Source: Haloarchaeobius iranensis (GTDB lineage: Archaea > Halobacteriota > Halobacteria > Halobacteriales > Natrialbaceae). Taken from it: 64,000 nucleotides of DNA. The notes beneath the pieces were generated by a model. The model ran no database searches. It was not told the DNA's origin and worked only from the letters and a program-made list of their open reading frames with translations. The position numbers were made by a program, and so were the translations under genes. Below are positions 29,520 through 35,291 of the stretch, piece after piece (position 1 is the stretch's first letter; every line of letters starts with the position of its first letter). The stretch is taken from positions 62,001 through 126,000 of the forward strand of contig NZ_FNIA01000001.1 in assembly GCF_900103505.1 (NCBI RefSeq). Direction: 5' to 3'.

Positions 29520-30755
29520 ATGTCACGATCCACTGCACTGCTCGCAATCGCACTGGCCGCCCTCCTCGTGACCGCCGGCTGTCTCGGCGGCGTCGCCGGG
29601 ACAGGGGACGGCGCGAACACCGGTGACGATGCGGACACCGGCTCCGACGACACCAGCGTGTCGTTCTACGTGAGCGACCGCCCGGGCGCTATCGACCAGT
29701 TCGAACACCTCAACGTCACCATCACGTCCGTCGGCTTCCACCAGGCCGACGAGAGCGGTGACGAGACGGACGAAGCTGACGAGGACGCCGACGAGAACGA
29801 GACCACCGCCGAACCGGAGGACGTGAACGAGACGGCCACCGAGGACGTGAACGAGACGATCAGCCAGACTGAGACGAACACGACCACGGACGCGCCGGAG
29901 ACGGACTCCGAGGACTCGAGCGACGGCACCGACACCGAGAGCGACGACGAGTCCGACAGCGACGACGCCGAATCCGACGGCGACGGAGAGGCGACCGAGC
30001 CCGGCAGCGAATCCGAGGGCTGGGTCACCCACGAGGTGGACAACCGCACCGTCGACCTGACCGAGCTGCAGGGTGCGAACGCCTCCCGGCTCGCCGACTT
30101 CAACGTCAGCGCGGGCGAGTACGACAGAGTGTTCGTCCACGTCAGCGAGGTCCAGGGCACACTGGAGAACGGCGAGCAGGTCGACGTCAAGCTCCCGAGC
30201 GACAAGCTCCAGATCAACAAGCAGTTCACCGCCGAGTCCGGCTCGAACCTGAGCTTCGTGTTCGACATCATGGTCCACGAGGCCGGCAACTCCGGACAGT
30301 ACATCCTTCGTCCGGTCGTGAGCGAGTCCGGCACCGGCGACCAGGTCGAGATCGACGACGTCGACGCGGACGAGCGTGAGGGCGAACGCGGCCCGCCCGA
30401 GAACGCAGGCCCCGGGAACGACGGGGAGAGCGACGATGGTGAATCGAGCGACGACGACAGCGACTCGGCCGGCACCGAGACCGAACTCGAACTCGCCGTC
30501 GACGGCCAGGTCAGAGCCGGTGAGACGGTGACGCTGACTGTCACCGGAAACGACGACGCCGCCGTCGCCAATGCGACCGTCTCCGTCGACGGCGAGACGG
30601 TCGGCACCACCGACGCCGACGGCACCATCGAACTCACTGTGCCGGACGACGCCGAGGAGCTCGAAGTGACAGCCACGAAGGACGACGCCGAGGCAGAACA
30701 GTCGTGGCCGGTCCGCGGTAACGGCGGACAGGGCCGCGTGGCAGTCACTGCGTGA
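29520..30755 (+). CDS. DUF4382 lipoprotein with acidic linker
   Basis: 411 residues. The signal peptide ends at a lipobox (VTAGC, Cys21). A DUF4382 domain starts at VSFYVSDRPGAIDQFEHLNV and is interrupted by about 90 residues almost entirely Asp, Glu, Ser and Thr, then resumes (TVDLTELQGANASRLADFNV) through YDRVFVHVSEVQGTLENG. A C-terminal Ig-like domain (VRAGETVTLTVTGNDDA) follows a second acidic linker. Extracellular and lipid-anchored; function unknown. TTTATACC at 29487-29494 is 30 bases before the ATG. Confidence 0.82.
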   Translation: MSRSTALLAIALAALLVTAGCLGGVAGTGDGANTGDDADTGSDDTSVSFYVSDRPGAIDQFEHLNVTITSVGFHQADESGDETDEADEDADENETTAEPEDVNETATEDVNETISQTETNTTTDAPETDSEDSSDGTDTESDDESDSDDAESDGDGEATEPGSESEGWVTHEVDNRTVDLTELQGANASRLADFNVSAGEYDRVFVHVSEVQGTLENGEQVDVKLPSDKLQINKQFTAESGSNLSFVFDIMVHEAGNSGQYILRPVVSESGTGDQVEIDDVDADEREGERGPPENAGPGNDGESDDGESSDDDSDSAGTETELELAVDGQVRAGETVTLTVTGNDDAAVANATVSVDGETVGTTDADGTIELTVPDDAEELEVTATKDDAEAEQSWPVRGNGGQGRVAVTA

Positions 30756-31106: not shown

Positions 31107-34100
31107 ATGAATCGGAAACTCCTAGCACTACTGCTCGCCAGTCTGATGGTATTCGGTTTCACGACTCCGTACGTTGCGGCCGGAGCTCCAACCGACCAGC
31201 AGGCAGGCACTTCGACAGAGATCGTACAGGCAGGCGTCAGCGGTGAGGACGTCGCATCAATCTCCGAGGACGCGTCCGCGCCCGAAACGGCGTGGGTCCA
31301 GCCTGCACTCGAACAGCAGTTCGAGCAGCAGGACGTCACACAGGTAGTCGTCCGGCTCGGAACGCCGGACCTACGGTCGTCGCTCGGCCGTGAGGCTACC
31401 ATCCAGGGCCTCCAGTCCCACGCAGAGCGGACCCAGGAACCGATTCTCGACTGGGCCAGCGAGCGTGACGGCGTCGCAGTCGAGAACACGTTCTGGTTGG
31501 CCAACGCCGTCGTGCTCTCGGTCCGGTCCAGCGGCGACAGCAGCGTGACCCTCGACCGGCTCGCACAGCTCGACGGTGTCGAGGAGCTCCACGCCAACTT
31601 CGAGGTCTCGGCACCCGAGCCGGTGGACAGTCAGGAGGTACGCAGCTCCTCCGACCACCCCGCGACCTACGGGCTGAACCAGATCAACGCGACCGAGGTC
31701 TGGGACCAGTTCGGCACCATGGGTGAAGGCACGAAGGTCGCCATCCTCGACACCGGTGTCGACCCGAGCCACCCGGACATCGACCTCTACACCGAGAACG
31801 CTTCGGACCCGACCTACCCCGGCGGGTGGGCCGAGTTCGACGGTAGCGGTAACCAGGTCCCGGACAGCGAGCCCTACGACTCCGACGGCCACGGCACGCA
31901 CACCTCCGGAACGGCGACCGGTGGCAACGCCAGCGGTGAGTACATCGGCGTCGCGCCGGAGTCCAACCTAATCCACGGTGGCGTCCTCACGCCCGAGGGC
32001 GGTACCTTCGCCGCCATCATCGGCGGCATGGAGTGGGCCGTCCAGGAGGACGCCGACGTCATGTCGATGAGTCTCGGCTGCACCAACGCACCGTGTTACG
32101 AAGAAGGGATGATCGAACCGACGCTGAACGCGGAGGCTGCGGGCACCGTCGTCGTCGCGTCCTCCGGGAACGACGGCGAGGGTGCGAGCAGCTCACCCGG
32201 TAACGTCTGGGACGCCGTCGCGGTCGGCGCGTCCAACGAGGGCGCCGACATCGCCGACTTCTCCAGCGGCATGGAAGTCGACACGGACAGTGCCTGGGGC
32301 GACGCCGCACCCTCGCACTGGCCCGACACCTACATCGTGCCCGACGTATCCGCGCCCGGGGTGGACGTGAAGAGCTCCGTCCCCGGCGGTGGCTACGCCG
32401 AGTACTCCGGCACGTCCATGTCCTCGCCGCACACGGCGGGCGCAGTCGCGCTGATGCGCTCCGCCTCCGGTGGCGATGCCAGCGTCTCGATGGTCAAGGA
32501 CGCGCTCCGTGAGACCGCGTGGAAGCCGGACGGCGAACCGTCCGGCAACGACACGCGCTACGGTGCCGGTATCATCAACGCCCTCGAGGCGACCCAGATG
32601 GTCGCACTCGAACAGGGCGTCGAGGGAACCGTCACCGACGCTGACGGCAACGCCATCGAAGACGCTGAAGTCAACATCGCCGGCGGTGGTTCCGGAACGA
32701 CCAACGCCTCTGGGTACTACAGCATCATCGCCCAGAACGGCACCTACGACGTGACCGCCAGCGCGTTCGGCTACGAGTCCGCCACGGAGACCGTCACCGT
32801 CGACGGTGACTACGTCACCCAGGACTTCTCGCTGAGCCCGACGCTGGATGTCCGGCTGCTGAGCGGACAGCCGTCCGCCATCGAGGCCGGTGAGAACGCC
32901 ACCGCGGTCGCAGAGGCCGCGAACCTCGAAGCCTACACGGCCGAACTCGGCGACGGCTACAGCGAGGCGAACGCCACGCTGTACGTCAACGGCCAGGAGG
33001 TGCCGTGGGGCCAGACGGTCACCTTCGACGAGCCGACCGACGTCACCGCCACGGTGACCGTCGAGACGACCGCGGACACCAGTGGGACGGTCTCGGTCAT
33101 CCACACCTTCGAGGGGCTCAACGATTCCATCGAGGTCACGACCGGTCCGACTGACGTGTTCGAGGAGTTCACCCAGGTCGGCGTCGTCGACGACGGCGGT
33201 GACTACGGGCAGGCTGTCAAGGGCACCCTCCAGGAGTACCTGCCCGCCAACTACCAGGTGTCGGTCATGACCTCCGACGAGGCCATGAACAACGTCGATA
33301 CGTACGACAGCTTCGTCGTGCAGAACATCGACGATTCCAACGGCGAGGCGTTCGCCTCCGCCACGAGCGCGGTCACGACAGGCGTGGTCTGGCTCGACAA
33401 CTGGGGCAGCAGCAGTAACGGTGTCCCGGTCCGCTCCTCGGCCATCGGCGACCCCGCCAACACCGACGATGCGTTCGGTGACGGTGTGGTCTCCTACGAG
33501 GTGACCAGCGACCACCCGATCTTCGAGGGTGTCGCCGAACCCGGTGAGAGCGTCCAGCTCCACACCGCCACCCTGTTCAACGACCACTCCTGGTTCACCG
33601 ACACCAACGCGGCCGTCATCGGGAACCTCCACACCGCAGATGCCGGTGTGAAGGGCCCGGGCATCGCGGTCGATGCGGACCGCTGGGGCGTCATGGCGTC
33701 CACGCTCGGCCGTGAGACGTTCGTCGAGGACGGCGACTTCACCGAGGAGGCCGACCAGATCCTCGCGAACTCGGTGCTGTTCGCGTCCGACACGCCCGAA
33801 CCCGTCGGGACGGTCGACGTCACGGAGACGACGGTCCAGCCCGGCGAGGACGCGACCGTCACCGTCTGGACCGGCGACATCGACAACGTCTCCGGCTACC
33901 AGGCCGAGCTGAACTTCGACCCGACCAAGCTCCAGGTCGCGGACATCAACGGCGTCGACTTCGCCGACCCCGTGACGAACATCGACAACGAGAACGGCAC
34001 CATCTCCATGGCCCAGGCCGGTGCGGCCGGCGTGGACAACCCCGAGATGGCCGAGATCGAGTTCGACGTGCTCATGGACGACTTCAACCAGTCGGCTGAA

Positions 34101-34436
34101 GTCTCCTGGAACGTCGGCGGCTCGATGATCACCCACCCGAACGGTACCGCGCCGCTCGTTGACTGGACCGGTGGGATGGTCCAGACCGCCGACTGTACGG
34201 CTGGCGACGTCAACTCCGACGGTTCGATCACCGTCCAGGACGCGACGCTCACCCAGCAGTACATCGTCGGTGACGACCCGGCCAACTTCAACCCGAGCTG
34301 TGCCGACATGAACGGTGACGGCCAGATCACCTCCGCCGACGTGACCCTCATCCTCGAGGAGATCGTCGGGAGCAGCATCTCGGCACCGCAGCCGATGACG
34401 GCCTCCGAACTCGTCGGCCTGCAGGCCGAAGCCTGA
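31107..34436 (+). CDS. Secreted subtilase with cohesin-like and dockerin domains
   Basis: 1109-residue S8 serine protease. Signal peptide (1-26); inhibitor-like propeptide to about 190; catalytic domain about 195-500 with Asp215 (LDTGVD), His262 (DGHGTHTSGT) and Ser437 (GTSMSSPH) all present; a carboxypeptidase-regulatory-like beta domain (505-580); a middle region (585-900) including VGVVDDGGDYGQAVKGTLQE, which looks like an amidotransferase-type fold; a cohesin-like domain (903-1028); and a dockerin (1030-1090) with paired calcium loops DVNSDGSITVQDA and DMNGDGQITSADV. It lacks PGF-CTERM and any anchor, so the dockerin is the likely attachment. The next gene encodes an anchored cohesin. Start chosen at the signal peptide ATG. 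Confidence 0.92.
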   Translation: MNRKLLALLLASLMVFGFTTPYVAAGAPTDQQAGTSTEIVQAGVSGEDVASISEDASAPETAWVQPALEQQFEQQDVTQVVVRLGTPDLRSSLGREATIQGLQSHAERTQEPILDWASERDGVAVENTFWLANAVVLSVRSSGDSSVTLDRLAQLDGVEELHANFEVSAPEPVDSQEVRSSSDHPATYGLNQINATEVWDQFGTMGEGTKVAILDTGVDPSHPDIDLYTENASDPTYPGGWAEFDGSGNQVPDSEPYDSDGHGTHTSGTATGGNASGEYIGVAPESNLIHGGVLTPEGGTFAAIIGGMEWAVQEDADVMSMSLGCTNAPCYEEGMIEPTLNAEAAGTVVVASSGNDGEGASSSPGNVWDAVAVGASNEGADIADFSSGMEVDTDSAWGDAAPSHWPDTYIVPDVSAPGVDVKSSVPGGGYAEYSGTSMSSPHTAGAVALMRSASGGDASVSMVKDALRETAWKPDGEPSGNDTRYGAGIINALEATQMVALEQGVEGTVTDADGNAIEDAEVNIAGGGSGTTNASGYYSIIAQNGTYDVTASAFGYESATETVTVDGDYVTQDFSLSPTLDVRLLSGQPSAIEAGENATAVAEAANLEAYTAELGDGYSEANATLYVNGQEVPWGQTVTFDEPTDVTATVTVETTADTSGTVSVIHTFEGLNDSIEVTTGPTDVFEEFTQVGVVDDGGDYGQAVKGTLQEYLPANYQVSVMTSDEAMNNVDTYDSFVVQNIDDSNGEAFASATSAVTTGVVWLDNWGSSSNGVPVRSSAIGDPANTDDAFGDGVVSYEVTSDHPIFEGVAEPGESVQLHTATLFNDHSWFTDTNAAVIGNLHTADAGVKGPGIAVDADRWGVMASTLGRETFVEDGDFTEEADQILANSVLFASDTPEPVGTVDVTETTVQPGEDATVTVWTGDIDNVSGYQAELNFDPTKLQVADINGVDFADPVTNIDNENGTISMAQAGAAGVDNPEMAEIEFDVLMDDFNQSAEVSWNVGGSMITHPNGTAPLVDWTGGMVQTADCTAGDVNSDGSITVQDATLTQQYIVGDDPANFNPSCADMNGDGQITSADVTLILEEIVGSSISAPQPMTASELVGLQAEA

Positions 34437-34589
34437 CCGGGGCAGCACATCCAGCCGTACCGTTCGCCGACCACCTCGCCTCCGTGCGGGGCTGTTTCGA
34501 AGACGACGCACGCGGCTTTGCGTACTGCCCGCTCGGCGGGCACCAGGGGCGGCCGGGGACACCCGGTCGCCGGTTTCACCACACGACCC

Positions 34590-35291
34590 ATGACCACGAA
34601 CCGCCTTCCCGACGGAACGACACTGCTGCTGGTAGCCCTCTGTCTCGCACTCGTGGCCGTCCCGATCGCGGCCACGCAGGACTCCGCGACCCTCTCGCTG
34701 TCCTCGGCCGAGGCAGAGTCGGCCAGCGACACGGTTACCGTCACGCTCGCGGCGGACGGCTCGGACGTCGCCGGCTACCAGGCCAACGTCACGTTCGACC
34801 CGTCGGTCGTCCAGGTGCAACGCGTCTCCGGAGCGGACTACTCCGACCCGGTGCAGAACGTCGACAACGAGGCGGGCTGGGTGTTCCTCACCCAGTCCCA
34901 GGCGAACGGCGTCGACGACCCGCAGCTCGCGACCATCACGTTCGAGGTCGTCGGGAGCGCGGGCGAGCGCTCGACGCTCTCGTTCGTCGAGTCCGACACC
35001 CGTGTCAACGACGCCGCCGGCGCCCACGTCGACGTGAGCCTCGACAGCGGCACCGTCAGCGTCGCCGACGGTGCCGGCGTGACGGCCCACGGCGATGGCT
35101 CGCAAGCAACGGCTGACGGCGGTGGCGAGGACCCTGCAGCCGGCACGGCGAACCAGCAGGTCGGCTCCGGCACCGCCACCCCGGGCGGTGCGGCGGGCGG
35201 GAACGGAACGGGTCTCTCGACGCCGATGCTCGTCGGCGGTGCGGCCGCACTGCTCGCCGGTGGCGTGTTGCTCGGTCGGCGCGCGTCCTGA
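34590..35291 (+). CDS. Membrane-anchored cohesin-domain protein
   Basis: 233 residues. Signal peptide (TLLLVALCLALVAVPIAA), a cohesin-like domain (about 32-155), a Gly/Thr/Ala linker and a C-terminal membrane segment (LVGGAAALLAGGVLLG) ending in basic residues. The cohesin is clearly related to that inside the upstream subtilase: both have GYQA, FDP, a DPVxNxDNE segment and GVDxPxxAxIxFxV. It lies 153 bases after the subtilase on the same strand. By analogy with bacterial cohesin-dockerin pairs it would hold the protease at the cell surface (inference). Confidence 0.82.
   Translation: MTTNRLPDGTTLLLVALCLALVAVPIAATQDSATLSLSSAEAESASDTVTVTLAADGSDVAGYQANVTFDPSVVQVQRVSGADYSDPVQNVDNEAGWVFLTQSQANGVDDPQLATITFEVVGSAGERSTLSFVESDTRVNDAAGAHVDVSLDSGTVSVADGAGVTAHGDGSQATADGGGEDPAAGTANQQVGSGTATPGGAAGGNGTGLSTPMLVGGAAALLAGGVLLGRRAS

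Follow-up and report, generated by a model that had tools for sequence, protein, structure and literature searches.

The contact between cohesin and dockerin modules is among the strongest non-covalent protein contacts known, and is familiar mainly from polysaccharide-degrading complexes. In the archaeon Archaeoglobus fulgidus, a gene encoding a cohesin–dockerin tandem adjoins a gene encoding a single cohesin with a PGF-CTERM-like membrane anchor (AF2375/AF2376; L214), and the AfuDoc75–AfuCoh76 pair of this organism is presented in one survey as the most specific and strongest among 154 pairs (PMC9705933). A bacterial parallel is provided by the Clostridium thermocellum subtilase Clo1313_0689 (PDB 8x39, 8x3a), an S8 protease that docks by preference to the cell-bound cohesin ScaD (PMC12484212). 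Here we describe a locus within a 64,000-nucleotide stretch of the haloarchaeon Haloarchaeobius iranensis (the whole stretch is hereafter the window), in which the gene for a subtilase ending in a cohesin and a dockerin is followed by a gene for a membrane-anchored cohesin. Tethering of the protease to the cell surface through this archaeal cassette, one cohesin–dockerin gene beside one cohesin–anchor gene, is in our judgement the best explanation of the locus, and a probable one.

As a cassette, the two genes would serve to display the protease at the cell surface. The subtilase, secreted and itself unanchored, would bind through its calcium-loaded C-terminal dockerin to the cohesin of the neighboring membrane protein, and probably also to two further membrane cohesins encoded in the genome; this would hold the protease at the membrane or surface layer (S-layer) and keep released peptides close to the cell. 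The cohesin ahead of the dockerin could in principle accept a second dockerin, from another copy of the enzyme, a paralogous protease or a PhoX-type phosphatase, and stacks of anchored enzymes would then be possible.

Domain architecture and predicted folds

The features of the locus are as follows.

31107..34436, + strand: secreted subtilase, 1109 aa; open reading frame with a signal-like N-terminus, an S8 domain, CarboxypepD_reg, and a C-terminal cohesin and dockerin
31722..32570, + strand: Peptidase_S8 catalytic domain, residues 206–488 (Pfam-A, 158 bits)
33810..34184, + strand: enzyme-borne cohesin, residues 902–1026 (PF00963; AlphaFold model compared with PDB cohesins)
34194..34370, + strand: type I dockerin, residues 1030–1088; two calcium loops, paired cysteines Cys1030 and Cys1065
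34590..35291, + strand: membrane-anchored single-cohesin protein, 233 aa; preferred start ATG 34590, with TTG 34518 less likely
34689..35063, + strand: anchor cohesin, residues 34–158 (PF00963; profile match to solved scaffoldin cohesins)
35220..35276, + strand: C-terminal hydrophobic anchor, residues 211–229, followed by GRR

The first-pass annotation, made from the sequence alone, had described a 1109-residue subtilase with a cohesin at about residues 903–1028, a C-terminal dockerin with two intact calcium loops and no membrane anchor, and each of these features is borne out. The catalytic residues are all kept (triad D215, H262 and S437, plus N355), and CarboxypepD_reg follows at residues 505–576. 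The Pfam-A matches to Cohesin (PF00963, residues 902–1006, 40.0 bits against a cut-off of 24.1) and Dockerin_1 (PF00404, residues 1032–1082, 44.4 bits against 22.9) are well above threshold, and both calcium loops are intact (D1034-N1036-D1038-D1045 and D1067-N1069-D1071-D1078). The N-terminus is hydrophobic and signal-like, and the C-terminus holds no membrane segment. Cys1030 and Cys1065 lie immediately ahead of loops 1 and 2, respectively, and bracket the first dockerin repeat (window 34194–34301); because their equivalents in haloarchaeal dockerin relatives are either both present or both absent, never one alone, the pair suggests a disulfide staple.

The downstream gene had been described as a cohesin with a C-terminal membrane segment, and this also stands (PF00963, 42.3 bits against 24.1, with a hydrophobic tail), the start being moved to ATG 34590. 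Its N-terminus is signal-like. The window anchor protein has no PGF-CTERM motif, which many of its orthologues carry; in the anchors of the window's genus (window 35205–35291 and L043–L045), a conserved STPxLVG...GGVLLGRRAS tail stands in place of the PGF-CTERM tail and might act as an alternative signal for anchoring or sorting. The two genes lie 153 bp apart and share a reading frame, interrupted by one TGA. The hairpin in the intergenic gap looks strong, but shuffled sequence does as well (z -0.61). Pfam finds no carbohydrate-binding module in either protein.

An AlphaFold2 model of residues 891–1109 (mean predicted local distance difference test, pLDDT, 81.9; predicted template modeling score, pTM, 0.60) matches PDB cohesins in Foldseek at E-values of 1.2e-10 (1g1k) and 1.3e-10 (2xdh). 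By Z-score (VIA-align) the top structural match of the enzyme cohesin is 2xdh (Z 16.8), a non-cellulosomal cohesin of A. fulgidus, in a tie with a large set of clostridial cohesins at Z 16. The dockerin, modeled in a separate fold at pLDDT 97–98, matches solved dockerins 6kgc_B (E 8.4e-4, 0.9 Å root-mean-square deviation) and 6kgd_B (template modeling score 0.91). The fold matches of both modeled modules are far beyond chance, and the anchor domain is, judged from its sequence, a cohesin. The fold of the enzyme domain and the sequence of the anchor domain were each set against the possibility that these beta domains are not cohesins, and the cohesin identity held in both.

In its layout and in its best fold match the locus thus resembles A. 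fulgidus AF2375/AF2376. It differs in that no S8 domain is detected in the A. fulgidus cohesin–dockerin protein, the cohesin sequences are remote (~20% identity), the A. fulgidus genes overlap whereas a 153 bp gap separates those in the window, and the window anchor lacks the PGF-CTERM-like motif. Clo1313_0689 is likewise a dockerin-docked subtilase, and its dockerin matches that of the window in sequence and fold, but it carries a double dockerin and, as described, no cohesin, and is part of a cellulosome. Bacterial cellulosomes (CipA, ScaA/ScaB) share both modules and both folds with the window proteins, but in this genome there is no multi-cohesin scaffoldin, the cargo is a protease, and the two proteins have no carbohydrate-binding module found by Pfam.

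Conservation, co-divergence and the case for surface tethering

Conserved adjacency of the two genes was examined in a census of the ~78 best-scoring haloarchaeal dockerins, taken regardless of cohesins, plus others, with the multi-cohesin genus described below left out. An adjoining cohesin–anchor gene accompanies 21 of the 22 S8 proteins that have their own cohesin and dockerin, against none of the 23 dockerin-bearing S8 proteins that lack a cohesin domain, for which no cohesin lies in the retrieved stretch. This contrast, tallied by hand from locus scans, gives a Fisher P of 6e-12, a value that overstates the number of independent events owing to the kinship of the species. One of the 21 pairs is annotated in the Halomicrococcus gelatinilyticus plasmid NZ_CP100467.1. 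The anchors terminate in a hydrophobic tail, in many cases PGF-CTERM, which the enzymes lack.

The pairing also recurs outside this protease group. Dockerin proteins are followed at once by cohesin–anchor genes, often with a 4-bp overlap, at L072, L074, L077, L078, L080 and L183, and those scanned (L072, L077, L078 and L183) are metallophosphoesterases; the predicted display cassette extends beyond proteases. The pairing of a cohesin–dockerin gene with a cohesin–anchor gene is found as well in Archaeoglobus-like, Methanosarcina-like and ANME-like genomes (labels inferred from kinship; ANME, anaerobic methanotrophic archaea), in some cases joined by a small dockerin gene as third member. The arrangement is both ancient and conserved. 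Viral contigs scanned with both proteins gave no match, a scan of genome contigs with the cohesin–dockerin alignment was dominated by dockerins from the rumen and brought up no named haloarchaeon, and a cohesin alignment was too diverse to yield a pattern.

Co-divergence of the modules was measured over 25 haloarchaeal pairs by partial correlation of distances with 2000 permutations. With the contributions of S8 domain and enzyme cohesin removed, dockerin distances still track those of the separately encoded anchor cohesins (partial r = 0.45, reached by 0 of 2000 permutations), which fits contact between the two, and they also track enzyme-cohesin distances (partial r 0.53).

A genome-wide profile search (genome size 3.77 Mb, completeness 99.9%) found five cohesins, two on enzymes and three on membrane proteins, and three dockerins, all on enzymes. 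Every cohesin-only protein is a membrane protein: the window anchor, one of 239 aa, and one of 660 aa with PKD-like repeats in its sequence, each with a C-terminal membrane tail. The enzyme-borne cohesins belong to the window subtilase and to a paralogous S8–cohesin–dockerin protease on contig C43 (L010:9783-13091, G000); with no neighboring anchor gene, this paralogue would need to borrow one of the three membrane cohesins. The third dockerin ends a PhoX-type phosphatase on the same contig (L012:8257-10911; C43:146743) and is a divergent one, scoring 22.8 bits in the protein scan; an apparent remote cohesin-like stretch missed by Pfam lies ahead of it. The dockerin cargo thus consists of two S8 proteases and the phosphatase, with no plant-polysaccharide-degrading cargo, and all five cohesins of this genome are single, with no scaffoldin carrying several.

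Because the cassette is conserved and the A. fulgidus dockerin of the same layout binds its neighbor's cohesin, tethering is likely, and we infer that the window dockerin binds the anchor cohesin and that the protease is retained at the surface. The tethering proposed in the first-pass annotation is in this way supported by the folds, the adjacency, the co-divergence and, by analogy, the established binding in A. fulgidus.

Several observations weigh on the other side. Co-divergence can also arise from shared history and unequal rates. Since the two genes share a frame, the dockerin, intergenic codons and anchor cohesin could be folded as one read-through chain to look for docking; the chain reached a pTM of only 0.31, and the anchor cohesin, with few usable relatives in the alignment, was poorly modeled (pLDDT ~60). 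In an order-wide scan of 392 genomes, 143 have a cohesin, 169 a dockerin and 85 both, a co-occurrence that is significant but loose (P = 1e-6). As 84 of the 169 dockerin genomes lack a Pfam-detected cohesin and 58 of the 143 cohesin genomes lack a dockerin, the two modules are not obligate partners in haloarchaea.

The cohesins of the 58 cohesin-only genomes are mostly single small proteins, and such orphans may bind something else. A second kind of haloarchaeal subtilase (~1500–1800 aa) has an internal dockerin directly after the S8 domain and no nearby cohesin gene (L164, L165, L168, L171, L175, L182, L185 and others). Because some S8 proteins carry their dockerin internally, around residue 500, with no cohesin nearby, the notion that all haloarchaeal dockerins have cohesin partners was dropped.

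The enzyme-borne cohesin and rival readings

Surface tethering requires a first docking step only, and is compatible with a self-assembling chain in which the dockerin of one protease sits on the cohesin of the next and the membrane cohesin closes off the polymer. Such chaining by way of the enzyme-borne cohesin is speculative but plausible, and on balance we lean slightly against it. From the end of the cohesin profile to the first calcium loop the linker spans 6–15 residues in most proteins, and a linker so short and conserved would make fold-back in cis unlikely and docking in trans likely; the tandem is also kept in relatives, and is even doubled to cohesin–cohesin–dockerin. The co-divergence of dockerin and enzyme cohesin points the same way, but between two modules of one gene it is weak evidence. 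A tree of 165 cohesins places enzyme-borne and anchor-borne haloarchaeal cohesins in two groups with few exceptions, and the duplication is therefore old. On the predicted contact strand, which we mapped by assuming that the bacterial arrangement of 1OHZ applies, AQA is commonest in enzyme cohesins and TQS in anchors and scaffoldins. Together, the separate groups and the AQA/TQS difference suggest that the two sockets may differ in preference, so that the dockerin may favor one class, which argues against a chain. The single dockerin of A. fulgidus is said, in a 2011 abstract, to bind both cohesins, which speaks for a chain.

The same separation of cohesin classes would suit an enzyme cohesin that serves as a socket for other dockerin proteins, such as the PhoX-type phosphatase or the paralogous protease, so that the protease would link the anchor to other enzymes instead of building a homopolymer. 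The genome does encode two other dockerin enzymes, and a related genus has cohesin–dockerin proteins without an enzyme domain; yet the dockerin of the phosphatase has diverged, each further genome of the window's genus holds just one dockerin above threshold, and we consider such an adaptor unlikely. A clasp in cis, with the dockerin seated on its own neighboring cohesin and stabilizing the C-terminus, would account for the adjacency and co-divergence of the two modules, but the very short linker and a conserved anchor gene that it leaves unexplained make it improbable; the tandem model, with its moderate pTM of 0.60, decides neither way. Equally improbable is a loss of binding that left both modules as general beta-sandwich or calcium-stabilized spacers: many haloarchaea do have a dockerin or cohesin without its counterpart, but here the calcium loops are intact, the gene pairing is conserved, and scaffoldins of 14 cohesins have evolved beside dockerin proteases.

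Multi-cohesin protease clusters in a related genus

Those scaffoldins occur in another genus of the same family, three genomes of which carry clusters of these genes.

76516–112592 of contig C1, genome G261 (L063:517-18999 and L064:90-17593): largest cluster, 36 kb
L065/L066 (genome G087) and L060 (genome G377): further clusters

The 36-kb cluster encodes eight subtilases with a dockerin, a cohesin–dockerin or a cohesin–cohesin–dockerin arrangement, two cohesin–dockerin proteins without a detected protease domain, single-cohesin anchors, one 3-cohesin anchor, and a scaffoldin of 2087 aa with 14 cohesins (Pfam count) and a PGF-CTERM tail. The scaffoldins of the other two genomes have about 8 and 4 cohesins, and scaffoldin cohesins cluster with anchor cohesins in the tree. 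The cluster is apparently a protease version of the cellulosome. That haloarchaea build protease-based counterparts of cellulosomes is a proposal on which we are evenly divided: it would take a minimal form in the window (a membrane cohesin and a stackable cohesin–dockerin subtilase) and a full form in the related genus, where scaffoldins of ~4, 8 and 14 cohesins would hold as many as eight subtilases, able to branch further by means of the cohesins they carry.

Dockerin and cohesin proteins of ANME archaea are comparable in that extracellular cohesin–dockerin tandems and scaffoldin-like proteins of up to 5 cohesins occur (PMC9012536), but their cargo is mostly ATP-binding cassette (ABC) substrate-binding and S-layer proteins, whereas the haloarchaeal cargo is proteases and the related genus reaches 14 cohesins. 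According to that 2022 paper, which cites Peer 2009, archaea have no large multi-cohesin scaffoldins. Our search found no open-access report of a haloarchaeal protease scaffoldin, most subscription journals lying outside it. One haloarchaeal study takes the dockerin as a substrate-binding domain (PMC10963439).

The layout itself is not new. The first-pass annotation had called it undescribed, which was overstated because the cohesin and dockerin sequences of the same A. fulgidus pair were reportedly published in 1999. The employment of this layout for S8 proteases throughout haloarchaea, and the multi-cohesin clusters, are apparently unreported in the open-access literature searched. The new elements are the conserved protease use and these clusters. 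Conserved in haloarchaea for protease display, and joined in one genus by true multi-cohesin scaffoldins, the modules would extend the docking principle to archaeal protein digestion at molar salt and could supply salt-tolerant docking pairs for engineering. What archaeal cohesins and dockerins do, an old question, can be put to a direct test in hosts of the gene pair, among them H. gelatinilyticus.

Upstream of the protease gene, on the same strand and separated from it by a gap of ~350 bp, lies a gene for a DUF4382 protein (29520–30755).

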